From: an uncultured Lachnospiraceae bacterium
GTDB taxonomy: Bacteria > Bacillota > Clostridia > Lachnospirales > Lachnospiraceae
NCBI GenBank assembly: GCA_947628955.1
Contig: CANRBX010000010.1
Coordinates: 1 to 61,397, forward strand
DNA length: 61,397 nt
Direction of reading: 5' to 3'
Shown here: in pieces, positions 4,893-55,504 of the stretch
Position numbering within the stretch: position 1 is the first letter of the stretch
Layout of the letters: every line of letters begins with the position of its first letter
Made by a program: the position numbers and the translations under genes
Notes under the pieces: model-generated
Told to the model about the DNA's origin: nothing
What the model saw: the letters and a program-made list of their open reading frames with translations, nothing else
The model's database searches: none

Positions 4893-4925
4893 ATAGAATA
4901 AAGATAGAATAAGGATAGAATAAAG
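4893..4925 (+). repeat. 11-bp tandem repeat, three copies, upstream of def
   Basis: Three successive copies of ATAGAATAAAG (the second has a G at the last A position) lie in the 147-bp gap between priA and def. They are preceded by looser AGAATTAAA copies. The run ends about 20 bp before the def ribosome binding site. Confidence 0.75.
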
Positions 4926-4959
4926 AAAAAAGAGATACATTACAAATCGGAGGTATAAA

Positions 4960-5454
4960 ATGGCACTGAGACAGATCAGAATCATGGGAGACAGTAAGCT
5001 TGAGAAGGTATGCAGGCCGGTAAAGGAGATGACGCCGCGGCTGAAGGAGCTGATTTACGACATGCTGGATACGATGTACGATGCGAACGGCGTAGGTCTG
5101 GCGGCCCCGCAGGTGGGTATATTAAAGCGGATTGTGGTAATTGATATAGGAGACGGGCCGCTTATTCTGGTCAACCCGGAGCTTCTGGAAGCCTCCGGCG
5201 AGCAGACCGGCCAGGAGGGCTGTCTGAGCCTGCCGGGACAGGCCGGGATCGTGACGCGCCCGAACCACGTGAAGATCCGGGCGTACGACGAGAACATGCA
5301 GGAGTTCGAGCTTGAGGCGGAGGAGCTTCTGGCTCGCGCCATCTGCCATGAGCTGGATCATCTGGAGGGGATCATGTACGTAAGGCATGTGGAGGGCGAG
5401 CTGTTTGAGGTCACTGCCGAGGAGGAAGAGGACGAGTCCGCGGCGGAGGAGTGA
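4960..5454 (+). CDS. def: peptide deformylase
   Basis: Metalloenzyme that removes the formyl group from the N-terminal methionine of new proteins. All three family motifs are present: GVGLAAPQ at about 44-51, EGCLSLPG at about 86-93 (with the metal-ligand Cys) and HELDHLEG at about 130 (two His ligands and the catalytic Glu). Length 164 aa fits; the C-terminus is an acidic tail. The start is supported by CGGAGG 7 bp upstream. It is followed within 26 bp by fmt, the usual def-fmt pairing, so the gene that makes formyl-Met-tRNA and the one that removes the formyl group are co-expressed. Confidence 0.97.
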   Translation: MALRQIRIMGDSKLEKVCRPVKEMTPRLKELIYDMLDTMYDANGVGLAAPQVGILKRIVVIDIGDGPLILVNPELLEASGEQTGQEGCLSLPGQAGIVTRPNHVKIRAYDENMQEFELEAEELLARAICHELDHLEGIMYVRHVEGELFEVTAEEEEDESAAEE

Positions 5455-5480
5455 CAGCAGAAAGAGATCAGGAGGATTCA

Positions 5481-6431
5481 ATGATCGAGAAGGTAGTGTT
5501 TATGGGGACGCCGGATTTTGCGGTGGGGACGCTGCAGGCGCTGGCGGATTCCGGAAAATATCAGGTACAGGCCGTGTTCACCCAGCCGGACAGGGCGAAG
5601 GGGCGCGGAAAGGCGGTTCAGATGACGCCGGTGAAAGAGGCGGCGCTGGCGGCCGGGATCCCGGTTTATCAGCCGGAGCGGATCCGGGAGCCGGAGTGGC
5701 TCGAGGTGCTTAAGGAGCTGCGCCCGGATGCGATCGTGGTGGTCGCGTTCGGACAGCTGATCCCGCAGAGCATCCTGCAGCTTCCGCCGTACGGCTGCAT
5801 TAACGTCCACGCCTCCCTGCTTCCGCGGTACCGCGGGGCAGCGCCGATCCAGTGGGCGGTGATCAACGGAGACAGGGAGTCCGGCGTCACGACGATGCGG
5901 ATGGACGAGGGGCTGGACACCGGGGACATGATCTTAAAGGAGACGGTGCCGCTTGCGCCGGACGAGACGGGCGGCAGCCTGTTTGACAAGCTGAGCCGGA
6001 CGGGGGCCTCCCTCCTGCTGCGGACGCTGGAGGCGGTCGGAAACGGGACGGCACAGTACGAGCGGCAGCCGAAGGAGAGTCCGACGGCGTATGCGTCCAT
6101 GCTGACGAAAAAGGACGGGCGGATCGACTGGACGCGGAGCGCCGCGGAGATCGAACGGCTGATCCGGGGCCTGAATCCGTGGCCGAGCGCGTATACGACG
6201 TACCGCGGCAGGACGCTGAAGCTGTGGGCCGCCGAGGCCCTTCCCGGAGAAGGGAAGGAAGCGAAGGCGCCGCCGGGAACGGTCGCCGGGGTCACAAAGA
6301 AAACGCTCACGGTTCAGACCGGGGACGGCCTGCTCTCCATCCTGGAGCTGCAGCCGGAGGGAAAAAAGCGCATGACGGCGGACGCTTTTCTGCGCGGCAA
6401 TCCGGTCGAAACCGGAGAAGAGTTTCTGTAG
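5481..6431 (+). CDS. fmt: methionyl-tRNA formyltransferase
   Basis: Transfers a formyl group from 10-formyl-tetrahydrofolate to Met-tRNA(fMet). The N-terminal fold begins VVFMGTPDFAV. The folate-binding and catalytic stretch NVHASLLPRYRGAAPIQWA is at about 108-126, with DEGLDTGDM further on. A C-terminal OB-fold domain follows from about residue 205. The start is set at ATG 5481 because AGGAGG lies 7 bp before it. An in-frame GTG at 5451 overlaps the def stop and has no good site. Length 316 aa is normal. Confidence 0.96.
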   Translation: MIEKVVFMGTPDFAVGTLQALADSGKYQVQAVFTQPDRAKGRGKAVQMTPVKEAALAAGIPVYQPERIREPEWLEVLKELRPDAIVVVAFGQLIPQSILQLPPYGCINVHASLLPRYRGAAPIQWAVINGDRESGVTTMRMDEGLDTGDMILKETVPLAPDETGGSLFDKLSRTGASLLLRTLEAVGNGTAQYERQPKESPTAYASMLTKKDGRIDWTRSAAEIERLIRGLNPWPSAYTTYRGRTLKLWAAEALPGEGKEAKAPPGTVAGVTKKTLTVQTGDGLLSILELQPEGKKRMTADAFLRGNPVETGEEFL

Positions 6432-6446
6432 AGGAATTTCTCCAGA

Positions 6447-6530
6447 AGAATATCTACAGAGAAATTTTTGCAGTAGAATATCTACAGAGAAACTTCTGCA
6501 GAAGAATTTCTACAGGGAAATTTCTGTGAT
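6447..6530 (+). repeat. 28-bp tandem repeat, three copies, after fmt
   Basis: Copies begin at 6447, 6475 and 6503 with the form AGAATATCTACAGAGAAA and then TTTCTGCAG. A decayed half copy overlaps the fmt stop codon at about 6425. The three copies differ at a few positions, which suggests duplication followed by drift. The rest of the gap to 6622 holds a GC hairpin (6577-6592) without a T-tract and the next gene's ribosome binding site. Confidence 0.85.
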
Positions 6531-6622
6531 TGCCCGGCGCGGGACGCTCTGTCCGCCAGAATTCATTCCTGGTCAGGCCCCGCCCGCGGGGCATGTAAGT
6601 TTGCGGTAAAGGAGATGGCTTT

Positions 6623-7375
6623 ATGTATTTACTGATGGCAGGTGTCAATAACTATTACGGTTATGGTTACGGCGGCTATGGCGGCTACCGCTACATGTTC
6701 GACTGGACGTACCTTCTGGTTCTGGCCGGGCTTGTGCTTTCGCTGATTGCCTCCGCCAATGTGAAAAGCACGTTCAGCCGCTATTCGCGCGTGCGCGCGA
6801 TGTGCGGGATGACGGGCGCGATGGCGGCCCAGAGGGTGCTGCAGCTCGCGGGGATCAGCGATGTGCGCATTGAGCATATCGGGGGAAGCCTTACGGACCA
6901 CTATGATCCGCGGACAAAGACGCTCCGGCTCTCGGACAGCACATACTCGTCCAATTCGATCGCCGCGGTGTGTGTTGCGGCGCACGAGTGCGGACATGCG
7001 GTGCAGCACCAGACGGGATACGGGCCGCTTGTGCTGCGCAGCACGCTGGTGCCGGCGGCGAACTTCGGCTCCACGCTGGCATGGCCGGTATTTTTCGCAG
7101 GGCTGATCTTTTCCATGCGTCCGCTGCTGACTGTGGGGATCATTCTCTTTTCTCTGGCAGTCCTGTTCCAGCTCGTGACGCTTCCGGTGGAGTTTAACGC
7201 GTCTTCGCGCGCCCTTAAGATCCTGGAGAACGGCCATGTCCTCGGGGATACGGAGCTGGCGGCGGGCCGGAAGGTGCTGGGGGCGGCCGCGCTGACTTAT
7301 GTGGCGAGCCTTGCGGCCTCTGTGCTGCAGCTGCTGCGCCTGATACTTCTGGCGAACAACCGCAGAAGAGACTGA
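6623..7375 (+). CDS. zinc-dependent membrane metallopeptidase, YugP type
   Basis: A 250-aa integral membrane protein of the neutral zinc metallopeptidase family often named YugP. The N-terminus is Gly/Tyr-rich (YYGYGYGGYGGYRY), followed by a first membrane segment at about 28-48. The zinc motif HECGHAVQH is at about 119-127. Two or three hydrophobic segments follow at about 155-200 and 220-245. The conserved VEFNASSRAL motif precedes the last segment. The substrate of this family is not known. The ribosome binding site AAAGGAG lies 8 bp before ATG 6623. Confidence 0.88.
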   Translation: MYLLMAGVNNYYGYGYGGYGGYRYMFDWTYLLVLAGLVLSLIASANVKSTFSRYSRVRAMCGMTGAMAAQRVLQLAGISDVRIEHIGGSLTDHYDPRTKTLRLSDSTYSSNSIAAVCVAAHECGHAVQHQTGYGPLVLRSTLVPAANFGSTLAWPVFFAGLIFSMRPLLTVGIILFSLAVLFQLVTLPVEFNASSRALKILENGHVLGDTELAAGRKVLGAAALTYVASLAASVLQLLRLILLANNRRRD

Positions 7376-7376
7376 A

Positions 7377-7444
7377 CAAGAGGCAGAAGAGAGCAAGAGG
7401 CAGAAGAGAGCAAGAGACAGGAGAGAGCAAGAGACAGAAGAGAG
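7377..7444 (+). repeat. 17-bp tandem repeat, four copies, between the peptidase gene and rsmB
   Basis: Copies of CAAGAGGCAGAAGAGAG begin at 7377, 7394, 7411 and 7428, with GGC changed to GAC in the last two. The array fills almost the whole gap between the stop of the peptidase gene and the rsmB ribosome binding region. It is purine-only on this strand apart from isolated C's. Confidence 0.9.
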
Positions 7445-7481
7445 AGCGGCATCTGCCGATGCATATGCAGGGGGAAAAAGT

Positions 7482-8900
7482 ATGGCGAACCAGGTTAATC
7501 TGCGCGAGATCGCGCTCACGATCCTGATGGAGATCACAGAGGAAGAAGCGTACAGCCATGTCGTCCTCCGGGAGGCGCTGGAGAAATACCAGTATCTGGA
7601 GAAGCGCGACCGCGCCTTCATCTCCAGGGCGGTGGAGGGAACGCTGGAGCACATGATACAGATGGACTACATCATCGAGCAGTTTTCCAATGTTCCGGTG
7701 TACAATATGAAGCCTCTGATCCGCAATCTGCTCCGGCTGTCTATCTATCAGATGAAATATATGGACAGCGTCCCGGACAGCGCTGTGTGCAACGAGGCGG
7801 TAAAGCTGGCGCAGCGCAGGGGGTTCTACAATCTCAAGGGCTTTGTCAACGGAGTGCTGCGCAACACGGCCAGGCGCCTGAACCAGGTCAGATATCCGGA
7901 TCCGAACACGGAGCCCCTGCATTACCTGTCCGTGAAATATTCGTTCCCGATCTGGATGCTGGACAGATGGACATCGCAGTTCGGATACGAGACCACGGAG
8001 AAGATCTGCCGCGATACGCATATGGAAAAGCCGACGGTCGTGCGCTGCAACCTGGCACGCGCGTCGAAGGAGCAGATCGTGGAGGAGCTTGAAAACCAGG
8101 GGATCACGGTCAGGCAGCATCCGTATCTGGACTATGCGCTGGAGATCTCCGATTACAATTACATGAAGGCAGTTTCCGCGTTCAAGAAGGGATGGATCCA
8201 GGTGCAGGACATCAGCTCCATGCTGGTCGCGGAGATCGCCGCCCCGAACTGGGGAGACACGTGCATCGACGTCTGCGCATCCCCGGGCGGGAAGAGCCTG
8301 CATATCGCCGATAAGCTGATGGGTAGCGGTTATGTGGAGGCACGCGACATATCGGAGCGCAAGGTGGCCCTGATGCAGGAGAACATTGAGAGGGCGGGCG
8401 CGATCAACATCCGCGCGGTGCTGAAGGACGCCACGGTGCCGGATCCGGATTCTTATCAGAAGGCGGACATCGTGCTCGCGGATCTTCCCTGCTCCGGCCT
8501 GGGAGTGATCGGCAAGAAGCAGGATATCAAATACAAGATGTCGGAAAAGCAGCAGCAGGACATTATCCGGCTGCAGCGCAGGATCCTGGCGGTCGTGCAG
8601 AATTATGTCAAGCCGGACGGCGTGCTGATCTTCAGCACCTGCACGATCGGGGCGGAGGAAAACCAGTACAACATCAAATGGTTCCTCGAGAATTTTCCGT
8701 TCCGTCTGGAGAGCATCGATCCGTACCTCTGCGAGGAGCTCAGAGGCAGGACGACGGGCGGCGGATACATCCAGCTTCTGCCCGGGATACACCGGTCGGA
8801 CGGATTTTTCATCGCGCGCCTGCGCAGGGTCAGCCAGTCTGCGGATGAAGAGTATTATCTGGATGAAGAGGATGAGGAGGCCGCGCAAGGGGATTTCTGA
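7482..8900 (+). CDS. rsmB: 16S rRNA (cytosine-967-C5) methyltransferase
   Basis: SAM-dependent RNA m5C methyltransferase acting on 16S rRNA. The N-terminal NusB-like RNA-binding domain (residues 1-150) is followed by the Rossmann methyltransferase domain. The SAM motif DVCASPGGKSLHIAD is at about 262-276. The two catalytic-motif cysteines are in ADLPCSGLG at about 335 and FSTCTIGAEEN at about 385. Length 472 aa is normal with a short acidic tail. It precedes rlmN, another rRNA modification enzyme, and rsgA, so this stretch is rich in ribosome maturation genes. Confidence 0.95.
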   Translation: MANQVNLREIALTILMEITEEEAYSHVVLREALEKYQYLEKRDRAFISRAVEGTLEHMIQMDYIIEQFSNVPVYNMKPLIRNLLRLSIYQMKYMDSVPDSAVCNEAVKLAQRRGFYNLKGFVNGVLRNTARRLNQVRYPDPNTEPLHYLSVKYSFPIWMLDRWTSQFGYETTEKICRDTHMEKPTVVRCNLARASKEQIVEELENQGITVRQHPYLDYALEISDYNYMKAVSAFKKGWIQVQDISSMLVAEIAAPNWGDTCIDVCASPGGKSLHIADKLMGSGYVEARDISERKVALMQENIERAGAINIRAVLKDATVPDPDSYQKADIVLADLPCSGLGVIGKKQDIKYKMSEKQQQDIIRLQRRILAVVQNYVKPDGVLIFSTCTIGAEENQYNIKWFLENFPFRLESIDPYLCEELRGRTTGGGYIQLLPGIHRSDGFFIARLRRVSQSADEEYYLDEEDEEAAQGDF

Positions 8901-8927
8901 GCGGAGGGAGTTCCGGCAGGGGAGCAC

Positions 8928-8985
8928 CGGATGTGAAGTGCCGGGCGGAAGGAACAGCGGATGCGAAGCTGCGGGCGGAGAGCAC
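8928..8985 (+). repeat. 30-bp direct repeat, two copies, between rsmB and rlmN
   Basis: The units beginning at 8928 and 8958 both read CGGATGYGAAG and then the GCGGGCGGA type, followed by a purine-rich stretch. They fill the middle of the 133-bp gap. The copies have diverged at several positions. Confidence 0.6.
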
Positions 8986-9033
8986 CTGTGCCGGGAGTTC
9001 TGCGGCCTGACGGCGGAAAACGGCGGAGATTGC

Positions 9034-10119
9034 ATGGAGAAGACAGAGATCAAATCCTTATATTTTGAAGAACTGGCGGAGATGGTTGCCGCGGCGGGGG
9101 AAAAACCGTTCCGGGCGAAGCAGCTGTACCAGTGGATGCACCAGAAGCTGGCGGATGATTTTGACGAGATGACGAACCTGCCGGCATCGCTTCGCGCAGA
9201 GCTTTCCGCGGCGTGCGAGTATGTGTGCCTTGATCTGGCGGACCGGCGGATATCCGCGGCGGACGGGACGGAGAAATATCTGTTCCGGCTCCCGGACGGA
9301 AATGTCATCGAGAGCGTTCTGATGAGATACCATCACGGAAACTCGGTCTGCATCTCTTCCCAGGCCGGCTGCAGGATGGGCTGCAGATTCTGCGCGTCCA
9401 CGATCGGCGGCCTGACGCGGAACCTGCTTCCGTCGGAGATGCTCGACCAGGTCTACCGGATCCAGAAGATAACCGGGGAGCGCGTGTCGAACGTCGTGGT
9501 GATGGGAACCGGGGAGCCGCTCGACAATTATGAGAATCTGCTGCGGTTTCTGAGGCTGCTGACGGATGAGCGCGGGCTGCACATCAGCCAGAGAAACGTC
9601 ACGGTCTCGACGTGCGGCCTGGTCGAAAAGATCCGGGCGCTTGCGGACGAAAAGCTGCAGATCACGCTGGCGCTCTCGCTGCACGCGTCGAGCTAGGAGA
9701 AGAGAAAAAAGCTGATGCCCGTCGCTTACCGGTACGAGCTGCGCGACGTGCTGGACGCGTGCCGCTATTATTTTGAGCAGACCGGCAGGCGGATCACCTT
9801 TGAGTACAGCCTGGTGAAGGGCGTGAACGACACCGGGAGGGATGCGAAGGAGCTGGCCGCCCTGCTTCGGGGGATGAACTGCCACGTCAATCTGATCCCT
9901 GTCAACCCGGTCCGGGAGCGCAGCTACGTCCAGCCAGATCCGGCGGCCGTAAATGCATTTAAAAATAAGCTGGAAAGCGAACAGATAAACGTGACGGTGA
10001 GAAGAGAGATGGGCCGCGACATCGCGGGGGCGTGCGGACAGCTGAGAAAAAGCTACATGGAGAGCCCGGATAAGGCCGAAAAAGACGAAAAGGATGAAAA
10101 AAGCGGAGAAAAGGACTAG
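9034..10119 (+). pseudogene. rlmN: 23S rRNA m2A2503 / tRNA m2A37 methyltransferase gene interrupted by an in-frame TAG
   Basis: Radical SAM enzyme that methylates A2503 of 23S rRNA and A37 of some tRNAs. The reading frame from ATG 9034 (GGAG 8 bp upstream) shows the family order: EKPFRAKQLYQWMH, then CRMGCRFC (iron-sulfur cysteines) at about 113-120, then VVVMGTGEPLDNYENLL. In the motif normally reading SLHA(x)3EKRKxLMP, codon 221 is TAG (9694-9696). The same frame then runs on without a break from EKRKKLMPVAYRYE to 10119. The second catalytic cysteine, in AGACGQL at about 333, lies after the stop, so the 220-aa product would be inactive. A CAG-to-TAG change is the simplest cause; a sequencing error is possible. 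Without the stop the protein would be 361 aa, the normal length. An internal ATG at 9715 would give only a fragment. Confidence 0.9.
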
Positions 10120-10157
10120 AAAAGGACGAGAATGAATAATCTCTTGTCCTTTTTTTC
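10120..10157 (+). terminator. Rho-independent terminator after rlmN
   Basis: AAAGGACGAGA pairs with TCTC-TT-GTCCTTT across an 8-nt A/T loop and is followed by a run of T's at about 10149-10156. It separates the murE-to-rlmN run from the phosphatase-kinase operon. The promoter of the latter overlaps its right arm. Confidence 0.8.
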
Positions 10158-10172
10158 CTGCTGTGCTAAAAT
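10144..10172 (+). promoter_or_regulatory. promoter of the PP2C-prkC operon
   Basis: TTGTCC (10144-10149), 17 bp, TAAAAT (10167-10172) with an extended TG at 10164-10165. The -35 box is part of the terminator stem of the preceding operon. Confidence 0.7.
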
Positions 10173-10235
10173 GTTTAAATAGATGTTTTTTTGCAGGTTA
10201 TAAAGCGATACTGGGATAGAAAAGAGGAAACGGGT

Positions 10236-10972: not shown

Positions 10973-13270
10973 ATGTTAAAAGTCGGAATGTTTATACAGA
11001 ACAGATATGAGATAATATCGCGAATCGGCTCCGGCGGGATGGCTGACGTGTACAAGGCGAAGGACCACAAGCTGAATCGGTTTGTCGCGGTAAAGGTGCT
11101 GAAGAAGGAATTCCGGGACGACAAGGTGTTTATCTCCAAATTCCGCGCGGAGGCACAGTCGGCCGCAGGCCTGGCGCACGCCAACATCGTGAACGTGTAT
11201 GACGTCGGCGAGGAGGCGGGGATCTCCTATATCGTGATGGAGCTCGTGGAGGGGATCACCCTGAAGGAGTACATCAAGAACAAGGGGCGCCTCTCCGCCA
11301 GGGAGGCCACCAGCATTGCCCTGCAGATCTCTGCGGGCCTGGAGGCCGCGCACAATAACGGGATCATCCACCGCGATGTGAAGCCGCAGAATATCATCAT
11401 CTCGACGGACGGCAAGGTGAAAGTGGCGGATTTCGGCATCGCGAGGGCCGCGACGACCAACACGTTCAATTCCAGCGTGATGGGGTCGGTGCACTACAGC
11501 TCCCCGGAGCAGTCGCGCGGCGGCTACAGCGATGAGAAGAGCGATATCTATTCTCTCGGGATCACGATCTATGAGATGCTGACCGGGCAGGTGCCGTTTG
11601 ACGGGGACACGGCGGTCGCCGTCGCGATCCGCCATCTCCAGGAGGAGGTGCCGGGCCCGAAGGAGCTGGTGCCGGAGATCCCGTACAGCACGAACCAGAT
11701 CGTGCTCAAGTGCACGCAGAAGAGCCCGGACCGCCGCTATGCGAATATGACAGACCTGATCCGCGACCTGCGCGAGTCGCTGATCAATCCGGACGGCGAT
11801 TTTGTGACGAAGCCGTCGGTGGACCCCACGGCCCGGACGCGTGTCATCTCCAGGGACGAGGTAGACCAGATCAACGCGGAGCAGCGGACGATGCCGGCCT
11901 ACGACGAGTCGCTGGACGTCGGGGCGGCCGCAGGCCTGCATGTGCAGGATACGGGGCCGTCGCAGAACCGCGCCTACCAGCCGGGAAGCTATTATCAGAA
12001 GAGCACGCTTCAGGAGGTGCGCCCGGGGCAGAACCGGGACGGCCAGTGGGATTCCCTGGCGGAGAGCGAGGCGTCGGATGAGCAGGAGTACGACCCCTAT
12101 TTTGATGCGTACGACGATCCGGACGATTATGCGATCCACGACGGAAATTACCGCCTGGACGAGACCTTTGTGCCGCAGGAGTCCCAGAGACGGAGATCGC
12201 GCAGAAACCGGGAGGACGACGGGGACGTCGGACTGAACCCGAGGCTTGAGCGCATTGTGACGGTCGGCGGGATCATCGTCGCCGTGATCATCGGCTGCGT
12301 ATTTCTCGTCCTGCTGGCGAATGCGTTCGGAGTGTTCCATTTCCGGAAGAAGCCTGCGGAGACAGAGCTGGTGACAGAAAAAGAGAGCGAGAGCGAGCCT
12401 GTGCAGACCGTTTCCGTTCCGGAGCTTTCCGGGAGGACAGAGGCGGATGCGCTGAAGCTGCTGGAGAGCTATGGCCTGACCGGGCGGAAGACGGGCGAGA
12501 AGGAGTCCGCGGACGCCCAGGCGGGCGAGGTGTGCGACCAGTCTCCGGATGCCGGAGAGCTGGTGCAGCGCGGGACCGCGGTGGACTACCAGGTGGTGAA
12601 GGAGCCTGAGATGTTCGAGCTGGCAGACCTGACCAATGTGGAGCAGAGCCAGGCAAAGGCGTTCCTGCTGACACAGGGCCTGACCTGCGAGGTGGACACC
12701 TCCAGGCACAGCGACACGATCGAAAACGGACATGTGATCACGACAGAGCCGATGGCCGGGACGAGGATGAAGCCCGGGGACACGGTGACGATCTATGTCA
12801 GCCAGGGCGAGGACGTTCCGGTCAGCTATGTGACTCCGTGGGATCTGACCGGCTATACGGTGGAGCGCGCCAACGAAGCGCTGGAGATGCAGGACCTGAT
12901 CGCGGATTACCAGTACGAGGCCAGCGATGTGATCGGCGAGGGGTACATCACGCGGATGGATCCCCCGGCAAATCAGCAGATCGCACGCGGCTCGACCGTG
13001 ACGCTCTATATCAGCACGGGGCCGGATACGGACGGACAGCAGCAGCCGGTGCAGACGCCGCAGTCTGAGACACAGCAGGCGCAGACGCAGCCGCCGCAGT
13101 CCGAGACGCAGCAGGTGCAGACCCAGCCGCAGCAGCAGTCTGAGACGCAGCAGGCGCAGACCCAGCCGCAGTCCGAGACCCAGCCGATACAGATACAGCA
13201 GCCGGAGCAGCAGCCGGCACAGCCGCAGCCCGGGGACGACAACATTACGATCATCGGGAACGGCGGCTGA
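10973..13270 (+). CDS. prkC: PASTA-domain Ser/Thr protein kinase
   Basis: Membrane kinase that senses cell-wall fragments or lipid II through extracellular PASTA domains. It regulates wall synthesis, growth and, in spore formers, germination. The cytoplasmic kinase domain (1-270) has GSGGMADVY, the Lys of VAVKVLK, HRDVKPQN and DFGIARA. A linker with many Tyr, Asp and Gln residues follows. A single membrane segment lies at about 428-452. At least three PASTA repeats follow (about 475-685). The last 65 residues are a Gln/Pro/Thr tail made of repeated QSETQQAQTQ units. Length 765 aa is above the norm because of the linker and tail. It is co-transcribed with its phosphatase and followed by rsgA and rpe, a typical Firmicute order. 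Confidence 0.95.
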   Translation: MLKVGMFIQNRYEIISRIGSGGMADVYKAKDHKLNRFVAVKVLKKEFRDDKVFISKFRAEAQSAAGLAHANIVNVYDVGEEAGISYIVMELVEGITLKEYIKNKGRLSAREATSIALQISAGLEAAHNNGIIHRDVKPQNIIISTDGKVKVADFGIARAATTNTFNSSVMGSVHYSSPEQSRGGYSDEKSDIYSLGITIYEMLTGQVPFDGDTAVAVAIRHLQEEVPGPKELVPEIPYSTNQIVLKCTQKSPDRRYANMTDLIRDLRESLINPDGDFVTKPSVDPTARTRVISRDEVDQINAEQRTMPAYDESLDVGAAAGLHVQDTGPSQNRAYQPGSYYQKSTLQEVRPGQNRDGQWDSLAESEASDEQEYDPYFDAYDDPDDYAIHDGNYRLDETFVPQESQRRRSRRNREDDGDVGLNPRLERIVTVGGIIVAVIIGCVFLVLLANAFGVFHFRKKPAETELVTEKESESEPVQTVSVPELSGRTEADALKLLESYGLTGRKTGEKESADAQAGEVCDQSPDAGELVQRGTAVDYQVVKEPEMFELADLTNVEQSQAKAFLLTQGLTCEVDTSRHSDTIENGHVITTEPMAGTRMKPGDTVTIYVSQGEDVPVSYVTPWDLTGYTVERANEALEMQDLIADYQYEASDVIGEGYITRMDPPANQQIARGSTVTLYISTGPDTDGQQQPVQTPQSETQQAQTQPPQSETQQVQTQPQQQSETQQAQTQPQSETQPIQIQQPEQQPAQPQPGDDNITIIGNGG
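13061..13200 (+). repeat. coding repeat in the prkC tail, about 36-bp units
   Basis: Units starting CAGTCYGAGACRCAGCAG begin at 13061, 13097, 13136 and 13169, so the spacing is 36, 39 and 33 bp. All are multiples of three, which keeps the kinase tail in frame. They encode QSETQQAQTQP-type repeats outside the membrane. Confidence 0.85.
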
Positions 13271-22018: not shown

Positions 22019-23938
22019 ATGCAGAAGACGAGATCATTTCACCGCAGGAAGATCGTGGCGGTCTTTCTGGGATGCCTGCTGGCGCTCATGCTTCTGGGGG
22101 TGCGCCTGGCGTATCTGATGATCGCCGAGTCGGAGCACTATGCGAAGCTGGCCGAGGACCTGCATGAGCGCGAGCGCTCGATCAAGGCGGCCCGCGGGAG
22201 GATCCTGGACCGCAATGGTCAGGTGCTGGCGGACAACCGGACGGTCTGCACCGTGTCGGTGATCCACAGCCAGATCGAGGATCCGGAACGGGTGACGGAG
22301 GTGCTCGCGAAAGAGCTCGAGCTTCCCGAGGAGACGGTGCGAAAGCGCGTGGAAAAGGTCAGTTCCATTGAGCGCGTCCGCCAGAACGTCGATAAGGAGA
22401 CGGGGGACCGCATCCGGAATTACAATCTGGCCGGAGTGAAGGTGGACGAAGACTACCGCAGGTACTATCCGTACGGAAGCATGGCATCCAAGGTGCTCGG
22501 CTTTACGGGGGGAGACAACCAGGGGATCATCGGCCTGGAGGTTATGTACGAGAGCGAGCTGGCGGGGACGCCGGGCAGGATCCTCACGCTGACGGATGCC
22601 AGGGGCATCGAGCTTCCGGACGCAGGGGAGACCCGCGAAGAGCCGGCAGCCGGAAATGACCTGGTCATCAGCCTGGATTACAATATTCAGAAATACGCGG
22701 AGCAGGCCGCGCGGCAGGTGATGGAGCAGAAGCAGGCCGACAGCGTCTCCATCCTCATCATGAATCCGTCGGACGGGGAGATCTACGCGATGACCAATGT
22801 GCCGGAGTTCGACCTGAACGACCCGTACACGCTGCTGCCATGTTATCTGCCGCAGGCGGAGAGCGGCGCAGTGCAGACATCCGGGGCCACTCTGTCCGGA
22901 ACAGACGGCGCGCAGACGTACGGAGGCACTCTGTCCGGAACAGGCGGCGCGCAGGCGTCCGGGGCCACTCTGTCCGGAACAGGCGCAGTGCAGACATCCG
23001 GGGACACTTTGTCCGGAACAGACGGCGCACTCTCCGGGGAGGCGCTGCAGGATGCCCTGAACCGCATGTGGAGAAACGGCTGCATAAATGATACCTATGA
23101 GCCGGGCTCCACTTTCAAGATCATAACAGCCTCCGCGGGCCTGGAGGCGGGAGCCGTCTCTCTGGACGACACTTTTTCGTGCCCGGGCTTCCGGATCGTG
23201 GAGGATCGTAAGATCCGCTGCCACAAGACGGGCGGCCACGGCGCGGAGACCTTTGTGCAGGGAATCCAGAACTCCTGCAATCCGGTATTCATCGAGGTTG
23301 GGCTGCGGCTGGGCGTCGACCGCTATTTCTCCTACTTTGACCAGTTCGGGCTGAACAGAAAGACGGGGATCGACCTGCCCGGGGAGGCGGCCACGATCAT
23401 GCACAGAAAGGAGAATGTCGGGCAGGTGGAGCTTGCCACGATCTCCTTCGGCCAGTCGTTTCAGATCACACCGGTACAGCTTGCGGCGACCGTCAGTTCC
23501 ATCATCAACGGAGGGACACGTGTGACGCCGCATTTTGGTGTGGGCGTCAGGACGGCGGACGGGACGCTGAGTCCGATCCGCTATGAGAAGGGGGAGAAGA
23601 TCCTCTCCGCCGAGACATCCGCCACCATGCGCTATCTGCTGGAGCAGGTGGTTGACGGCGGCTCCGGCAAAAACGCGTACATCGAGGGCTACCGCATCGG
23701 CGGAAAGACGGCGACGTCGGAGACCCTGCCGAGAAGCGCGAACAAATACATTTCCTCGTTCATAGGCTTTGCGCCGGCGGACGACCCGCAGGTGCTCGGC
23801 CTGTGCATCATCAACAATCCGCAGGGCGTCTATTACGGCGGGACGATCGCGGCGCCGGTGGTGAAGGGGCTGTTTGAGAATATCCTGCCGTACCTGGGCA
23901 TCGAGCGCGCGGCGGAGGGCACAGGGGCCTCATCCTGA
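22019..23938 (+). CDS. second class B penicillin-binding protein (SpoVD/FtsI type)
   Basis: Second transpeptidase in tandem, 639 aa. One membrane segment lies at about 15-35. The dimerisation domain starts RGRILDRNGQVLADN. The active-site STFK is in EPGSTFKIIT at about 362-365 and SCN at about 418. The third motif reads GGKTATSE at about 562, with Ala in place of Gly in KTG. Lachnospiraceae and Bacillus clusters often carry a vegetative and a sporulation PBP side by side, so SpoVD is a plausible role, but no PASTA domain is seen. Between the dimerisation part and the STFK motif there is a repetitive insertion rich in Ser, Gly and Thr (about residues 283-340). The ribosome binding site is GAGGGG. 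Confidence 0.92.
   Translation: MQKTRSFHRRKIVAVFLGCLLALMLLGVRLAYLMIAESEHYAKLAEDLHERERSIKAARGRILDRNGQVLADNRTVCTVSVIHSQIEDPERVTEVLAKELELPEETVRKRVEKVSSIERVRQNVDKETGDRIRNYNLAGVKVDEDYRRYYPYGSMASKVLGFTGGDNQGIIGLEVMYESELAGTPGRILTLTDARGIELPDAGETREEPAAGNDLVISLDYNIQKYAEQAARQVMEQKQADSVSILIMNPSDGEIYAMTNVPEFDLNDPYTLLPCYLPQAESGAVQTSGATLSGTDGAQTYGGTLSGTGGAQASGATLSGTGAVQTSGDTLSGTDGALSGEALQDALNRMWRNGCINDTYEPGSTFKIITASAGLEAGAVSLDDTFSCPGFRIVEDRKIRCHKTGGHGAETFVQGIQNSCNPVFIEVGLRLGVDRYFSYFDQFGLNRKTGIDLPGEAATIMHRKENVGQVELATISFGQSFQITPVQLAATVSSIINGGTRVTPHFGVGVRTADGTLSPIRYEKGEKILSAETSATMRYLLEQVVDGGSGKNAYIEGYRIGGKTATSETLPRSANKYISSFIGFAPADDPQVLGLCIINNPQGVYYGGTIAAPVVKGLFENILPYLGIERAAEGTGASS
22865..23035 (+). repeat. coding minisatellite in the second PBP gene
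   Basis: At least four units of 36-42 bp beginning GGCGCAGTGCAGAC or GGCGCGCAG and ending CTGTCCGGAACAG. They encode about 13-residue repeats of the type AQTSGATLSGTG. Unit lengths stay multiples of three. They sit inside the transpeptidase domain before the STFK motif, in a loop absent from ordinary PBPs. Confidence 0.88.
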
Positions 23939-25176: not shown

Positions 25177-26733
25177 ATGGAATTCGGAGATAAAAAGGTC
25201 CTGGTCTTCGGGGCCGGGATCAGCGGGATTGGCGCGGCCAGCCTGCTGCTTCGCAGGGGGGCCGATGTGGTCTTATATGACGGAAACGCGTCGCTTGACG
25301 AGGCGGAGCTTCGCGGGAAGCTGGCGGCGGAGATCTGCGCCGCAGAAGCGCCGGATCAGGAGCCGCGCGGAGAGCTTCGCGGGAAGTCTGCGGCAGAAAC
25401 AGGCGCCGAAAAAGCACCTGACCAGGAGCCGTGCGGAGAGCTTCGCGGGAAGTCTGCGGCAGAAACAGGCGCCGAAAAAGCGCCTGACCAGGAGCCGCGT
25501 GCCGGAATGTGCGCGGAGCCGGGGGCGGCCGGGAAGCTTCAGATCGTGCTCGGGGCGTTCCCGCCGGACCTGAAGGATGAGCTCTCGCTCGTGATCCTGA
25601 GCCCGGGTGTTCCGACCGACCTTCCGCTCGTCAGTGAGCTGCGCGGCGCGGGCATCCGCATCTGGGGCGAGGTGGAGCTTGCCTGGGCGTGCGGAAAGGG
25701 GGACGTGCTGGCAGTCACCGGCACGAACGGAAAGACGACGACGACGAGCCTTCTGGGCGAGATCATGCGCGCCTGGAAGGACGAGGTGTATGTCGTCGGA
25801 AATATTGGAAATTCCTACACGGGCGCGGTCTCGCAGATGACGGACCAGGCGGTCACGGTGGCCGAGATCAGCAGCTTCCAGCTGGAGACGATTGAGACGT
25901 TTGCGCCGAAGGCCAGCGCGATCCTGAACATCACGCCGGACCATCTGAACCGCCACCATACGATGGAGGAGTACATACGCGTGAAGGAGCTGATCACGGA
26001 AAATCAGGGGCCGGACGACGTGTGCGTGCTCAACTATGAGGACGCGGTCCTGAGAAAATTCGGGGAGACCCTGCACACCCGTGTTCTATACTTCAGCAGC
26101 CTGCATACACTGGAAGAGGGAATCTGGCTTGACGGCGAAGACATCGTGTTTGCGGTGAACGGGGAGAGGCAGACCCTGTGCTCTGTGAAGGAGCTGAACC
26201 TGCCCGGACGGCACAATCACGAGAATGTGATGGCCGCCGCAGCCATGGCGCTCGCATACGGCACGCCGGTGGATGTGGTCCGCCGGGTGGTCTGCGCGTT
26301 CAGGGCGGTTGAGCACCGGATCGAGTTTGTGACGGAGCGGAACGGGGTCGTCTACTACAACGATTCCAAGGGGACGAATCCGGACGCGGCGATCAAGGGC
26401 ATCCAGGCCATGGACCGGCCGACGCTCCTGATCGGAGGCGGCTATGACAAAAATTCCTCCTATGAGGAATGGATCCGGGCATTTGACGGAAAGGTAAAAT
26501 ATCTGGTACTGATAGGACAGACAAGGGAGAAGATCGCGCAGGCAGCCAGGAGCTGCGGCTTTGAGGACATCCTCATGGCCGATTCCCTGGAGGAGGCCGT
26601 ACAGATCTGCGCAGACCGCGCAGAGAGCGGGGACGCTGTCCTGCTCTCGCCGGCGTGTGCGAGCTGGGGCATGTTCCCGAACTATGAGGTGCGGGGAAGG
26701 CGCTTTAAGGAACTGGTATATCAGCTGGCATAG
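25177..26733 (+). CDS. murD: UDP-N-acetylmuramoylalanine-D-glutamate ligase
   Basis: Cytoplasmic Mur ligase adding D-Glu to UDP-MurNAc-L-Ala. The N-terminal Rossmann-like domain has VFGAGISGIG; the ATP loop TGTNGKTTTTSL is at about 180-191, followed by NIGNSYTG, NITPDHLNRH and NDSKGTNPDA. The protein is 518 aa against about 450 for the family. The extra length is a three-fold 22-residue repeat (GELRGKSAAETGAEKAPDQE type) at about residues 44-108, inserted after LYDGNAS in the first domain. The catalytic motifs are untouched. It is preceded by AAAGGAGG and followed 11 bp later by ftsW. Confidence 0.96.
   Translation: MEFGDKKVLVFGAGISGIGAASLLLRRGADVVLYDGNASLDEAELRGKLAAEICAAEAPDQEPRGELRGKSAAETGAEKAPDQEPCGELRGKSAAETGAEKAPDQEPRAGMCAEPGAAGKLQIVLGAFPPDLKDELSLVILSPGVPTDLPLVSELRGAGIRIWGEVELAWACGKGDVLAVTGTNGKTTTTSLLGEIMRAWKDEVYVVGNIGNSYTGAVSQMTDQAVTVAEISSFQLETIETFAPKASAILNITPDHLNRHHTMEEYIRVKELITENQGPDDVCVLNYEDAVLRKFGETLHTRVLYFSSLHTLEEGIWLDGEDIVFAVNGERQTLCSVKELNLPGRHNHENVMAAAAMALAYGTPVDVVRRVVCAFRAVEHRIEFVTERNGVVYYNDSKGTNPDAAIKGIQAMDRPTLLIGGGYDKNSSYEEWIRAFDGKVKYLVLIGQTREKIAQAARSCGFEDILMADSLEEAVQICADRAESGDAVLLSPACASWGMFPNYEVRGRRFKELVYQLA
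25306..25500 (+). repeat. 66-bp coding minisatellite in murD, three copies
   Basis: Units start GAGCTTCGCGGGAAG at 25306, 25372 and 25438, exactly 66 bp (22 codons) apart. Copies two and three are almost identical while the first has diverged, which points to a recent second duplication. The frame is preserved. Confidence 0.95.
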
Positions 26734-29285: not shown

Positions 29286-30434
29286 ATGGCGCAGAACAGA
29301 CGAAAAAGACGGAAAAACAGGATTTTTAAACTGGGAGGGGCGGCTGTCATCCTGCTGCTGCTTCTGGCGTTTCTTCTTCTGTTCCGGGTCAGCAAGGTAC
29401 AGATTTATGGAAATGAAAGATACGCGGCCGAGGAGATCACCTCGGGCCTGCTGGACAATGTTTTCCTGAAGAACACGCTTTATGTTCTCTGGAGATACAG
29501 GGACGGGGAGGTTCCGGACAACATGTGCTACCTGAGCTCGCTGCATGTGCAGCTGAAATCCCCGGGTCATATAGATGTCCATGTGACGGAAAAGAAGCCG
29601 GTGGCGTACGTGGACAAAAACGGATACGCCTATATTGACCAGACGGGGATCGTCCTCGAGTACTCCGACCAGGTGTACAGCGGCGTCCCGATCGTCACGG
29701 GCGTTGCGGTGGAGGAACCGGTGCTGTACCAGAAGCTGCCGACACAGAGCAGCGCGCAGCTGCGGACGATACTGAGCCTGACGCAGCTTCTGTCGGAGCA
29801 GGAAGTGAGCGTAGATGAGATCCGTTTCGGCGAGAACATGGATATCACTATTTACGTGGGCTATATAGAAATCCAGCTCGGCCAGGACGAATATCTGGAG
29901 GAGAAGGTGGCGAATCTCGCCAAGATCCTGCTGCGCCTGGAAGGGCAGAGCGGAGTGCTTCATCTGGAGAACTTCACCGGGCGCAACGAGCAGGTGCCGT
30001 TCACCCCGGCGGGTGAGGTCACGGGTCAGGAGGGCGGTTCCGGCGACGGAAGCGGTGACTCCGGCGAAGACGGTTCCGGCGGTTCGGACAGCTCGGGCGA
30101 CGGACAGTCAGACGGCCCGGGCGGCTCGGGCGACGGACAATCCGGTGGCTCAGACGGCTCCGGTGACGGACAGGCGGACGGCTCGGACGGCTCCGGTGAC
30201 GGACAGGCGGACGGCTCGGACGGCTCCGGCGATGAGAACCAGGATACCGGGACCATCTATCCGATGGTATTCAATTCTTCCGGAACCCTTGTCTACAACG
30301 TCCACGTGGAAAACGGGACGGTGGTGGATGAATACGGCAATCCGGTGCCGGGCGTCACGATCAATGAAAACGGAAACGTCGTAGACGCATACATGAACGT
30401 GTTTGATCCGGCCACGGGCGAGCTGATCCAGTAG
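29286..30434 (+). CDS. divIB: cell division protein DivIB/FtsQ
   Basis: Bitopic division protein. A basic N-terminus (QNRRKRRKNRIFK) is followed by one membrane segment at about 17-37. A POTRA domain begins VSKVQIYGNERYAAEEI; a beta domain with HIDVHVTEKKPVAYVDKNGY follows. The last third is abnormal: a Gly/Ser/Asp tract at about residues 245-320, then a short ordered-looking segment ending FDPATGELIQ. Length 382 aa versus about 260-300 for most homologues. DivIB acts with FtsL and DivIC. ftsZ normally follows at once, but here it is 18.7 kb away. Confidence 0.9.
   Translation: MAQNRRKRRKNRIFKLGGAAVILLLLLAFLLLFRVSKVQIYGNERYAAEEITSGLLDNVFLKNTLYVLWRYRDGEVPDNMCYLSSLHVQLKSPGHIDVHVTEKKPVAYVDKNGYAYIDQTGIVLEYSDQVYSGVPIVTGVAVEEPVLYQKLPTQSSAQLRTILSLTQLLSEQEVSVDEIRFGENMDITIYVGYIEIQLGQDEYLEEKVANLAKILLRLEGQSGVLHLENFTGRNEQVPFTPAGEVTGQEGGSGDGSGDSGEDGSGGSDSSGDGQSDGPGGSGDGQSGGSDGSGDGQADGSDGSGDGQADGSDGSGDENQDTGTIYPMVFNSSGTLVYNVHVENGTVVDEYGNPVPGVTINENGNVVDAYMNVFDPATGELIQ
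30099..30231 (+). repeat. 33-bp coding minisatellite in divIB, four copies
   Basis: GACGGACA marks unit starts at 30099, 30132, 30165 and 30198, all 33 bp apart (11 codons, GDGQADGSDGS type). The last two units are nearly identical. Looser Gly/Ser/Asp coding sequence extends back to about 30036. Confidence 0.92.
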
Positions 30435-46058: not shown

Positions 46059-46062
46059 GCAT

Positions 46063-50300: not shown

Positions 50301-50337
50301 CCCGGGCATATTCCGGACAATACAGATAAAAATATTA

Positions 50338-50374
50338 CAGGGACTGCCGTGATCCAGCGGCGGTCCCTGCTTTT
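50338..50374 (+). terminator. Rho-independent terminator after ftsZ
   Basis: CAGGGACTGCCG pairs with CGGCGGTCCCTG across an 8-nt loop (one mismatch) and is followed by CTTTT. Confidence 0.85.
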
Positions 50375-50449
50375 CTACAGGGAGCTCTGCAAAAATACAG
50401 CAAATGATTATAACAAATAAATCACAGCAAAAACACGGAGGAGGAAGAC

Positions 50450-51472: not shown

Positions 51473-51523
51473 CAAAAAACATTTCAGCAGAACATCCTGG
51501 CAGGAAAGCCATTCTGAAGGGAA
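51449..51523 (+). repeat. direct repeat of the 3' end of the aldo/keto reductase gene
   Basis: The block ATCCTGGCAGGAAAGGCATT plus CTGA at 51450-51473, which includes the stop codon, is repeated at 51497-51520 with one change, about 47 bp later. The gap to 51566 shows nothing else apart from this copy. Confidence 0.85.
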
Positions 51524-51566
51524 CGGGAAAGTCAGCCTGGGCAGGATCTTTCAGGCGCGGCTTCGT

Positions 51567-53399: not shown

Positions 53400-53420
53400 C
53401 TCTGTTTTATCTCCTGTATA

Positions 53421-53437
53421 TGTAAAATGATTTTACA
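53421..53437. promoter_or_regulatory. perfect 17-bp palindrome upstream of the Na/Pi transporter gene
   Basis: TGTAAAAT-G-ATTTTACA, 21 bp before the start codon of the minus-strand gene and next to its ribosome binding site. It looks like an operator or an RNA hairpin in the leader. I do not recognise the regulator. Confidence 0.5.
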
Positions 53438-53506
53438 CAGACTTTACCCGTATTTCTTATTCTACTAGAAATCCATTCATTTTTCCATACTTATTTTAAA
53501 AATCTG

Positions 53507-53535
53507 TTGACACATTTTCGGATGCGGCCTATCAT
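53507..53535 (+). promoter_or_regulatory. promoter of the MATE gene
   Basis: Perfect TTGACA (53507-53512), 17 bp, TATCAT (53530-53535), about 70 nt before the start codon. Confidence 0.82.
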
Positions 53536-53605
53536 CAGAAGAGTGCCGGAGGGCCAGCCCCTCTGACTTTCGGATACAACGGACGGAGAATGGGCGGGAC
53601 GGAAT

Positions 53606-55165
53606 ATGAGTACAGAGAAAATCCATAATAATGAAATTTTTGAGGAAATGCCGGTTGCAAAAGCGGTGAGGACGATGGCGGTCCCGACGGTTATCAGCCA
53701 GCTGATCGTGCTGATCTACAATATGGCGGATACTTTTTTTATCGGGCGCACGGACAATCCGTACATGGTCGCCGGCGCGTCGCTGATCCTGCCGGTCTTT
53801 AATATCACGCTGTCGCTCTCGGGGCTTGCCGGGGTGGGCGGGGGCGCGCTGATCTCGCGGCTGCTCGGGAGAAAACAGGTGGGGGAGGCGCAGAAGGTTT
53901 ACAGCTTTTGTGTATATCTGGGAGCCTGCCTGGCCGCGCTGTTTTCTGTCGGCGTGCTGGTCTTCATGCGCCCGCTGATGCAGATGCTCGGGGCAGGGGC
54001 GGACACGTACCGCTATGCCAGCAGCTACGCATTTTTTGTCATTGTCTGCGGTGCAGTCCCGACGGTCCTGTCGAATGTGCTGTCCACGCTGCTTCGGAGC
54101 GTCGGCGAGTCGCGAAAAGCAGGTTTTGGGATCACGATGGGCGGGCTGATCAATATTGTCCTCGACCCGCTGTTCATGTTTGTCCTGCTCCCTGACGGAA
54201 TGGAGATCACGGGGGCCGGCGCCGCGACCTGCCTTTCAAATTACATCGCCTGCACATATTTTGCGGTCATCCTGTTCCGGATGAACAGGGGCGTCAGGGT
54301 GCAGTCCGCTTCGGAACCGCGCGGGAGCGGCCGGAAAGCCGCCGGGAGAGCGGACGCCGGAAGCGGCCGCAAAGCCGCCGGGAGAGCGGACGCAGGGAGC
54401 GGCCGGAAAGCCGCCGGGAGAGCGGACGCCGGAAGCAGCCGCAAAGCTGCCGGAACCGGCGGCGAGGGCAGCCCGGTGCTGCGGCTGTGCTCCCCGCGCT
54501 GCCTGCCGTCCAGGGAAAGCCTCGCGGGCATCTTTATCGTGGGGATCCCGTCGTCCGTGGCGACCCTGCTGTTTGACCTCGACTATGTGATCATTGACCG
54601 CCTGATGTCCGGCTACAGCGACGTTGCGCTTGCGGCTGTCGGCATTGTCCTGAAGGCGGAGCGCCTGCCCCTGAATGTGGGGATCGGCATCTGCCAGGGA
54701 ATGATGCCGATCATTGCGTACAATTATTCGGCAAAGAACTACCGCCGCATGAACGACACGAAGCGCTATTCGCTCCGGCTCGGCCTGACCTGCGCCCTGA
54801 TCAGCATCACGCTGTATGAGCTGTTTGCCGGGCAGATCATGAGGATCTTTATCTCGGATGCGGAGACGGTGGCGCTCGGGATTGGTTTCCTGCGGGCGCG
54901 CGTCCTGGCCACGCCGCTGATGTTCCTGAGCTTCTTCCACGTGTACCTCTTTAACGGCTTCGGGAAAGGGGAATACGCGCTGTTTCTCGGCGTGATGCGT
55001 TGGCTTGCCTTCAACATTCCGATGCTGTTTCTTCTGAACTGGCTGATCGGCATGAACGGCCTGGTGTGGTCGCAGGCCGCGGCGGATATCCTGACCGTGC
55101 TGCTGTCCCTGTACGTCTACCGCCGGTATGAGCGGAAGAATGCGCTGACCGCGCAGACACAGTGA
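53606..55165 (+). CDS. MATE-family efflux transporter
   Basis: 519 aa with twelve membrane segments in two bundles, coupled to H+ or Na+. VISQLIVLIYNMADTFFIG and GLAGVGGGALISRLLGRKQ are typical N-terminal motifs, and GIVLKAERLPLNVGIGICQG with MMPIIAYNYSAKN marks the second half. The loop between the halves (about residues 230-290) is greatly enlarged by a 12-residue repeat (SGRKAAGRADAG), very basic, while the rest is ordinary. Family length is about 450, so the repeat explains the excess. The drug or metabolite exported is unknown. Confidence 0.93.
   Translation: MSTEKIHNNEIFEEMPVAKAVRTMAVPTVISQLIVLIYNMADTFFIGRTDNPYMVAGASLILPVFNITLSLSGLAGVGGGALISRLLGRKQVGEAQKVYSFCVYLGACLAALFSVGVLVFMRPLMQMLGAGADTYRYASSYAFFVIVCGAVPTVLSNVLSTLLRSVGESRKAGFGITMGGLINIVLDPLFMFVLLPDGMEITGAGAATCLSNYIACTYFAVILFRMNRGVRVQSASEPRGSGRKAAGRADAGSGRKAAGRADAGSGRKAAGRADAGSSRKAAGTGGEGSPVLRLCSPRCLPSRESLAGIFIVGIPSSVATLLFDLDYVIIDRLMSGYSDVALAAVGIVLKAERLPLNVGIGICQGMMPIIAYNYSAKNYRRMNDTKRYSLRLGLTCALISITLYELFAGQIMRIFISDAETVALGIGFLRARVLATPLMFLSFFHVYLFNGFGKGEYALFLGVMRWLAFNIPMLFLLNWLIGMNGLVWSQAAADILTVLLSLYVYRRYERKNALTAQTQ
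54323..54453 (+). repeat. 36-bp coding minisatellite in the MATE gene
   Basis: Copies start at 54323, 54359, 54395 and 54431 (last one partial), exactly 36 bp apart (GGRAGCGGCCGSAAAGCCG core). Copies 1 and 3 and copies 2 and 4 are more alike, as if a 72-bp double unit had been duplicated. The frame is kept. Confidence 0.93.
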
Positions 55166-55360
55166 CATGTGCCTGCGGAACCTGCGCTTTCTGCACCTTT
55201 GCCGGCCCGGCGCGCCCTGAAAAAGAGTACGCTGGTATTTGCTGGCAGGGAAGCATACAGCAAACTGACGCCTGTCTCTAACAGGAGCGGCGTCGGGGCG
55301 CGAAATACCGTGAGATGTCCGGCTGAAAAGTGCGGACAGGACGATAAGGGGTGAAAGAAA

Positions 55361-55504
55361 ATGACGGATGAAAAAGCAATGACGGATGAGAAGAGAATGA
55401 CGGACGAAAAAACAATGACGGATGAGAAGAGAATGACGGACGAAAAATCAATGACGGACGAAAAAACAATAACGGACAAAAAAACTCTGACGAGTGAAGA
55501 GAAA
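55361..55504 (+). repeat. 18-bp coding repeat at the start of the acetyltransferase gene, eight units
   Basis: Units of the form ATGACGGAYGARAAR plus three bases begin every 18 bp from 55361. The first six keep ATG; the seventh has ATA and the eighth CTG. The variant third bases alternate (GAAAAA or GAGAAG), which shows copying of pairs. Confidence 0.95.

Follow-up and report, generated by a model that had tools for sequence, protein, structure and literature searches.

A genome-wide but lineage-restricted excess of minisatellites, in frame within genes and phase-blind between them, in a Lachnospiraceae bacterium

The 61,397-nucleotide window analysed here is contig 10 of a draft genome from an uncultured Lachnospiraceae bacterium (3.5 Mb in 136 contigs, 93.8% complete, 6.19% contamination). 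It carries tandem arrays of short units, several of which lie inside conserved cell-wall and division genes, including murD, divIB and the gene for PBP2. Comparison with the rest of the genome and with its relatives shows that the array excess is genome-wide but restricted to certain lineages. We attribute it, with a probability of roughly 0.6, to local tandem duplication at an elevated rate, the products of which are filtered by selection on reading frame and protein fold. Throughout, G000 denotes this genome, other G numbers the genomes of relatives, and L numbers individual loci or stretches.

The G000 sample comprises the window and twenty further 20-kb stretches, each from a separate contig (21 stretches, 461 kb in total). 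Arrays were called with Tandem Repeats Finder (TRF) at a score of at least 80, and density counts exclude units shorter than 9 bp and overlapping TRF rows; the called arrays are minisatellites, in the sense of head-to-tail units of about 10–100 bp in at least two copies. G000 holds 84 such arrays, or 1.82 per 10 kb, found on 19 of the 21 stretches, which extrapolates to roughly 640 arrays per genome. Unit lengths are mostly 15 to 120 bp, with a few longer units of up to 357 bp. Dinucleotide shuffles of the same 461 kb gave no arrays, and codon-shuffled genes gave no coding arrays against the 43 observed. The original prediction of a duplication-prone genome, in excess of other Lachnospiraceae, thus holds against most of the relatives sampled.

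Some congeners share this state and others lack it. Under the same criteria, G034 (60 arrays in 440 kb), G011 (39 in 240 kb) and G023 (15 in 83.5 kb) range from 1.36 to 1.80 arrays per 10 kb, while G032 reaches 0.82 (10 in 122 kb) and G015 only 0.34 (15 in 440 kb). The remaining congeners (31 stretches) yielded 15 arrays in 517 kb, five of them within the 29.5 kb of G001, and other families of the order (20 stretches) yielded five in 398.5 kb, or 0.13 per 10 kb. Eighty named loci around murD held 41 arrays in 1,416 kb. Tested per stretch, G000 exceeds both G015 (p = 5e-6) and the order (p = 5e-7), and shows no excess over G034 (p = 0.13) or G011 (p = 0.40). Called genes with an array number 34 of 333 in G000, 29 of 315 in G034, 10 of 212 in G011 and 11 of 297 in G015. 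In a tree of seven proteins, G000 is sister to a group formed by G034, G004, G028 and G015, within which ‘Ca. Choladousia intestinipullorum’ (L037) also falls and for which the closest named records belong to Lachnospiraceae; G011 comes next, and G023 and G001/G032 are placed elsewhere. Thin samples of two sister-group members contained no arrays (G004, 40 kb; G028, 8 kb). If the tree is right, the array-rich state has been gained or lost several times.

Between genes, the contrast among congeners is larger still. Per 10 kb of intergenic DNA, intergenic arrays number 3.43 in G000, 1.93 in G034 and 5.31 in G011, against 0.11 in G015; in absolute terms G000 has 27 in 78.8 kb and G015 has one in 91.1 kb, a difference of about 30-fold. 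Correspondingly, 13 of the 15 arrays in G015 are coding, while intergenic arrays make up 27 of 84 in G000 and 19 of 39 in G011. It is mainly because densities differ in intergenic DNA, where selection is weakest, that we attribute the difference to the mutational process, and we infer that the excess stems from more frequent duplication and not from less effective removal. The alternative, that duplication proceeds at an ordinary rate and that weak selection against slightly harmful insertions, as in a small effective population, lets arrays accumulate, could account for the low-cost places that arrays occupy, and for the low-complexity inserts of varying length that recur in the same loops genus-wide, also where TRF detects no array. 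We nevertheless consider it unlikely, given the size of the intergenic gap to a close congener, a coding fraction in G000 (0.829) that is not below that of the repeat-poor G015 (0.793, same gene caller), and the constraint that repeat peptides still show.

Reading frame separates the two classes of array. In G000, the unit is divisible by three in all 43 coding arrays, in 11 of the 27 arrays between genes and in 4 of the 14 boundary arrays; the latter are omitted from the coding–intergenic contrast. Pooling the four array-rich genomes (G000, G034, G011 and G023; 99 coding and 68 intergenic arrays), the counts are 99/99 and 26/68 (Fisher p = 8e-22). With G015 and G032 added, they become 116/116 and 28/74, the intergenic fraction being indistinguishable from one third (p = 0.46). 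Because the gene caller alone could force part of this triplet bias, 600 phase-blind arrays were placed into genes in a simulation without selection, and the genes were re-called; 210 of the 398 arrays then called coding were divisible by three (53%). This value is far from the complete set observed and, together with the intergenic one third, indicates that frame is under selection and that the underlying process is frame-blind. Frame filtering inside genes therefore exceeds what the gene caller imposes, and the process between genes is blind to phase.

Within proteins, the coding arrays lie mainly in linkers, tails and loops. Pfam placement covered 39 of the 43 coding arrays of G000 (38 in a main scan of 30 proteins and one more separately) and was judged on the best stretch per family; the other four belong to a 5119-aa protein (two arrays), a protein truncated at a stretch end and an 85-aa protein (one each). 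The 5119-aa open frame (L123:610-15969), perhaps a giant surface protein, holds a 357-bp repeat in 10.8 copies and a 123-bp array. In the main scan, 36 of the 38 arrays are in proteins with a match at E ≤ 0.001, two of these proteins having only matches below the cut-off. The arrays in the PBP2 transpeptidase and in DUF6465 are each contained in a match over the cut-off, and two more overlap matches below it, one to a coiled coil and one extensin-like. The MurD array splits the N-terminal domain, and the other scanned arrays fall outside the best Pfam stretches; that of Rho, for example, sits between the N-terminal and RNA-binding domains, and that of an ABC transporter between its membrane and ATPase parts. 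Across the four rich genomes, hydrophobic residues make up 14% of array peptides and 30% of the rest of the same proteins.

MurD illustrates the structural consequence. A model built from a 39-sequence alignment has a mean predicted local distance difference test (pLDDT) score of 85.6 with a well-predicted core, and solved structures of MurD rank as its best matches by fold. Residues 63–110, within the repeat region, form the sole segment of at least three residues under pLDDT 50, and the insert is thus predicted to be disordered. Against structure 3LK7, query residues 42–105 lack an aligned counterpart, and the gap is flanked by 3LK7 residues 44 and 46. Near residue 200, MurD has another, distinct insert in G001, G007, G012, G013, G014 and G032. 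More widely, the open-frame lengths of MurD, PBP2, MurA and DivIB (counted from the first start codon) vary across up to 20 congeners, and congener alignments place the variation of MurD, PBP2 and DivIB in the same loops or tails each time, with loops that differ between species in both length and sequence. Array units in the PBP2 loop differ, measuring 39 bp in G000, 36 bp in G011, 72 bp in G023 and 42 bp in G032, arrays being present in 3 of 19 congeners. The G011 unit is a copy of an L(S/T)GEALQDA stretch at the loop edge, which several neighbours keep once.

The repeat peptides are under moderate purifying selection, as judged from differences between neighbouring copies in the four rich genomes after indel-bearing arrays were dropped (72 of 99 coding and 35 of 68 intergenic arrays used). 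In coding arrays, the proportions of synonymous (pS) and nonsynonymous (pN) differences are 0.28 and 0.11, respectively, and the corresponding rate ratio (dN/dS) is 0.345 (0.27–0.45). The null values are 0.68 (0.62–0.75) for pseudo-frames of intergenic arrays and 1.0–1.24 for the wrong frames of coding arrays. A pS of about 0.28 also means that many copies arose long enough ago for around a quarter of their synonymous sites to differ, and the original description of the process as recent was therefore overstated; not all of it is. Its claim of nearly identical sister copies applies to some pairs, but across six genomes of the genus coding arrays have a median TRF match of 83%, and intergenic arrays one of 86.5%. 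Constraint of this kind, with a between-copy dN/dS of about half the intergenic null, could also be expected if the arrays were adaptive, supplying disordered loops and tails of variable length that tune cell-wall and division proteins, as in some surface proteins. Several arrays do lie in cell-wall, division and surface proteins, and the array with a 357-bp unit looks like a surface-protein domain repeat. This explanation is improbable in our view: it does not account for the intergenic arrays, which are equally characteristic of these genomes; the functions affected are mixed (Rho, an ABC transporter, an amidase, MerR, VanW); and mere tolerance predicts the same filters on frame and composition.

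Most units are unrelated to one another, and duplication is therefore local. Only 9 of the 3,486 possible pairs among the 84 arrays of G000 are similar at E < 1e-4, with one pair among 60 arrays in G034 and one among 39 in G011. Three of the nine pairs come from a mutually related intergenic trio (L117:13693-13924, L121:10520-10728 and L122:18684-18884; about 70–76% similar), whose units of 109, 75 and 107 bp, respectively, may represent a small dispersed element family. These pair counts refute an origin of the arrays at large from a dispersed or mobile family of repeats that spread into many genes; several of the other similar pairs are low-complexity coding arrays or neighbours. Such an origin may hold for the trio, but as a general account it is extremely unlikely. 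At fmt in the window, a 28-bp array starts in the last codons of the gene and its first copy contains the final codons and the stop, so that its unit is resident sequence. An artefact of assembly, or contamination of a single metagenome bin, might be suspected of a draft in 136 contigs with 6.19% contamination. It is hardly credible here, as the separate assemblies of G034, G011 and G023 show the same pattern, the arrays are spread over 19 of 21 stretches from separate contigs, and the differences between copies are scattered and mainly synonymous, which is not expected from chimeras or duplicated reads.

Base composition was considered as a cause in its own right, on the proposition that high G+C content alone makes genomes repeat-prone. 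Array density does correlate with G+C content over 100 congener stretches other than those of G000 (rho 0.39, p 7e-5), and more weakly over 24 genomes (rho 0.38, p 0.067) and 80 named loci (rho 0.21, p 0.063); coding arrays are also richer in G+C than their flanks (0.602 vs 0.560, p 4e-6). Intergenic arrays, however, are poorer than theirs (0.495 vs 0.558, p 0.001), and arrays and flanks are alike when all 223 arrays are pooled (0.558 vs 0.562). Moreover, genomes of similar composition differ in density, G004 (G+C 0.536, no array in 40 kb) and G015 (0.525, 0.34 per 10 kb) being poor and G001 (0.528) rich, on 29 kb, and two stretches from the order at 0.52–0.56 G+C are without an array. Composition as the sole driver is accordingly very improbable. 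Hairpin-driven instability was rejected as a general cause, since array strands are no more stably folded than their flanks (minimum free energy per nucleotide −0.121 vs −0.128, p = 0.16, 223 arrays).

Purine/pyrimidine asymmetry between strands is a feature of eukaryotic minisatellites. Here it was first tested on array-length windows and then again with unit-length controls, because repeats reduce the effective sample; after removal of units longer than 100 bp and of arrays for which controls were too few (207 of 223 used), purine asymmetry is 0.147 in units and 0.094 in unit-length flanks (p = 4e-13). The coding strand is the purine-rich one in 94 of the 99 coding arrays of the four rich genomes. 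Sense-strand purine richness is general in gaps between co-directional genes (372 of 421), and the 46 of 68 intergenic arrays that lie in such gaps exceed matched controls in sense-strand purine asymmetry (0.132 vs 0.073, p = 0.003). Because transcription and leading-strand direction are inseparable here, the purine-strand bias remains a lead.

Loss of mutS, mutL or recombination genes had been put forward as something to check. Mismatch-repair loss is rejected as the cause, as G000 has putative genes for both MutS (992-aa open frame) and MutL (732 aa), over the family cut-off and free of internal stops. MutS2 gave no match over the cut-off in G000, alone among the 11 genomes searched, in an assembly that is 93.8% complete; it is full-length in the repeat-rich G034, G011 and G023, and its loss is thus rejected as a shared cause. 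A MutS2-sized frame in which the MutS_V match is split in two occurs in G001, G009, G012, G013 and G014, suggesting an insert inside the ATPase domain. RecJ, PolA and XseA are over the cut-off in all 11 genomes, which rejects loss of RecJ, PolA or exonuclease VII. Strong SbcC-like matches (E ≤ 1.5e-35), none of which passed the family cut-off, were found in nine of the 11 genomes, including G000 and the poor G016, G017, G025 and G012, and no strong match was found in the repeat-poor G015 and G004. Such matches are therefore not explanatory, their distribution being the reverse of what a model in which loss causes repeats would give.

In the mechanism that we favour, short resident stretches, mostly of 15 to 120 bp, would be tandemly duplicated where they stand, without regard to genes or frame, at a standing rate that, in G000 and some congeners, is much above that of near relatives. 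From two copies onwards, slippage or unequal exchange could add and remove further copies, slippage being the probable molecular step. Selection would then purge arrays that break the frame or the fold, leaving triplet units to persist in linkers, tails and surface loops, and the surviving coding arrays may become, by drift under moderate constraint, disordered inserts of low complexity. A more ambitious version is doubtful on present evidence, although we raise it tentatively: a genome-wide tandem-duplication mutator state within this gut genus, not arising from mismatch-repair loss, that is switched on and off between sister species, seeds disordered inserts in conserved enzymes and prefers the purine-rich sense strand, suggesting slippage linked to transcription or to the leading strand.

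Several observations weigh against a raised local duplication rate. The comparison is between species only; weaker selection could likewise raise array numbers. Most congeners are sampled by only 8–40 kb, and the tree was read without support values, which leaves gain and loss along its branches less than firm. The murD region of the window, with three arrays in about 21.5 kb, is not extreme taken alone. Two named loci equal or exceed it, namely L108 (three arrays in 7.4 kb) and L096, from the named strain Diplocloster modestus ASD4241, a possible laboratory relative, with five in the 21 kb around murD, including intergenic arrays of 16 and 62 bp; the case therefore has to be made on the genome-wide sample. 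Of the seven coding arrays in the remaining congeners, one has a unit not divisible by three. The PBP2 units of G011 and G023 share the flanking ALQDA motif and are thus similar by source, and the related intergenic trio suggests that a minority of arrays may not be purely local. The lengths of the partial last copies are evenly spread with no preferred value, giving no positive sign of a mechanism based on microhomology, and none of the seven repair families searched yielded a responsible gene. On balance we still favour a higher local duplication rate. Congeners that lie about five-fold apart overall and about 30-fold apart between genes provide a natural comparison for what sets the bacterial rate of small tandem duplication. 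The case also outlines, step by step, how disordered inserts enter the conserved enzymes of a bacterium, through local duplication, a frame filter and drift. Such a repeat density would also be expected to hamper short-read assembly, and could supply strain markers.

The window itself holds ten TRF arrays at a score of at least 80; those in genes are on the + strand, and the gap arrays have no strand assigned. Of nine arrays listed in the original prediction, eight were confirmed at this threshold, to which 8921..8979 and 56155..56207 add two unlisted arrays, and the ninth, a weak 11-bp array in 3.9 copies in the priA–def gap (4884..4926), scores 65. The non-triplet units that it placed in the gaps are all present. 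The 28-bp array at fmt (6416..6526; 4.0 copies, score 145, with a 14-bp sub-repeat) is real, though it is not purely intergenic as had been described, running instead from the stop-codon end of the gene into the gap. The 17-bp array (7377..7444; 4.0 copies, score 115) is intergenic, 3′ of a zinc peptidase gene (Zn_peptidase_2). Low-complexity inserts had also been claimed for murE (968-2512) and priA (2521-4812); degenerate low-complexity stretches are indeed found in both, but neither contains a TRF array at a score of at least 80.

The coding arrays of the window fall in varied proteins. A 30-bp array in 2.0 copies (8921..8979, score 81) lies early in the rlmN frame, upstream of the Pfam RlmN_N match. 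The same frame (8845-10119) has an in-frame TAG at 9694-9696, within the radical-SAM part, which may be a nonsense change or an assembly error. In prkC, whose product has a kinase match and three PASTA stretches in Pfam, a 36/39-bp array in three copies (13052..13171, score 174–175) forms part of the Q/T/P-rich C-terminal tail. The PBP2 array (22873..23028) has a 39-bp unit of 13 aa in 4.0 copies (score 221) and was placed in a loop of the transpeptidase domain by Pfam and loop alignment. The MurD array (25306..25499), inside the N-terminal domain, has a 66-bp unit of 22 aa in 2.9 copies (score 295), and that in the DivIB C-terminal tail (30080..30232) a 33-bp unit encoding 11 G/S/D-rich residues in 4.6 copies (score 194; Pfam). 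Further downstream, a 36-bp array in 3.7 copies (54322..54453, score 215) precedes the best MatE stretch of a MATE transporter, again by Pfam.

Two adjoining genes (55361-56207), encoding a hexapeptide acetyltransferase and a RelA/SpoT-domain protein, both have arrays across their start codons. In the latter, assigned by Pfam, a 27-bp array in 2.0 copies covers the start (56155..56207, score 85). In the former, an 18/36-bp array (55355..55503, score 161–193) translates into an N-terminal MTDEKx repeat, and an in-frame ATG in six copies makes several starts possible. The nearest homologue of the acetyltransferase gene (55361-56143) belongs to another family (G042, 73%, aligned at residues 45–256) and has an open frame of 222 aa that lacks the N-terminal repeat; matches inside the genus reach at most 49%. 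From these sequence comparisons, the array is consistent with an origin after gene transfer or in this lineage. Elsewhere, positions 32950-58591 encode FtsZ, melibiase-like and GH127 glycosidases, a histidine kinase, a Na/Pi cotransporter and a sugar-isomerase-like gene.

Tolerated low-complexity inserts of a disordered kind are familiar from conserved enzymes of Plasmodium and Dictyostelium. Those organisms are eukaryotes and their inserts are mostly short codon runs, unlike the 15–120 bp units found here in a bacterium.

Among prokaryotes, a 2019 survey of satellites with 10–200 nt units found most species to be poor and a few far above the rest, with many satellites lying in genes and having units divisible by three (PMC6749651). 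The top bacterial replicon among the rows given there has 23.0 per Mb, and the archaeal Methanosarcina are very rich, with 1908 satellites in nine species. Under an approximation of the survey rule, rather than the original program, densities per Mb are 26.0 in G000 (12 arrays), 38.6 in G034 (17) and 29.2 in G011 (7), as against 2.3 in G015 (1), 5.0 in the order (2) and 4.2 in the named murD loci (6). G000, G034 and G011 would thus rank at or above the top of those bacterial rows. The arrays described here resemble the satellites of that survey, as far as its account was used, in being tandem, in many cases genic with triplet units, and extreme in few species; they differ in their several-fold differences between sister species and in their presence in conserved cell-wall and division genes.

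The frame rule is not new, being known from Legionella pneumophila, in which 26 significant intragenic repeats in 23 genes all have units divisible by three, a pattern read as selection on frame, with copy number varying between strains at seven genes (PMC2639597). Coding units keep frame in both cases. The Legionella report, in the part drawn on here, differs in screening genes alone and in finding fewer repeats per genome, with another program and cut-off, and the portion of its table considered lists repeat-domain proteins alongside Hsp60 and RecG. In-frame variable segments within genes, which our coding arrays resemble in both respects, are recorded within bacterial species for 3–6% of the genes in the alignments of one study, with short-repeat slippage proposed as the source (PMC2884548); in the sections of that work used here, minisatellites account for 2–4% of variable loci in E. 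coli, to be set beside the 34 of 333 called genes that carry an array in G000. Searches of the open-licence literature in PMC listed no paper whose title or abstract opening deals with a minisatellite excess in Lachnospiraceae. The kind of repeat is therefore known, and what we take to be new is its density, its on–off pattern among congeners, and the load that it places on conserved cell-wall and division genes.

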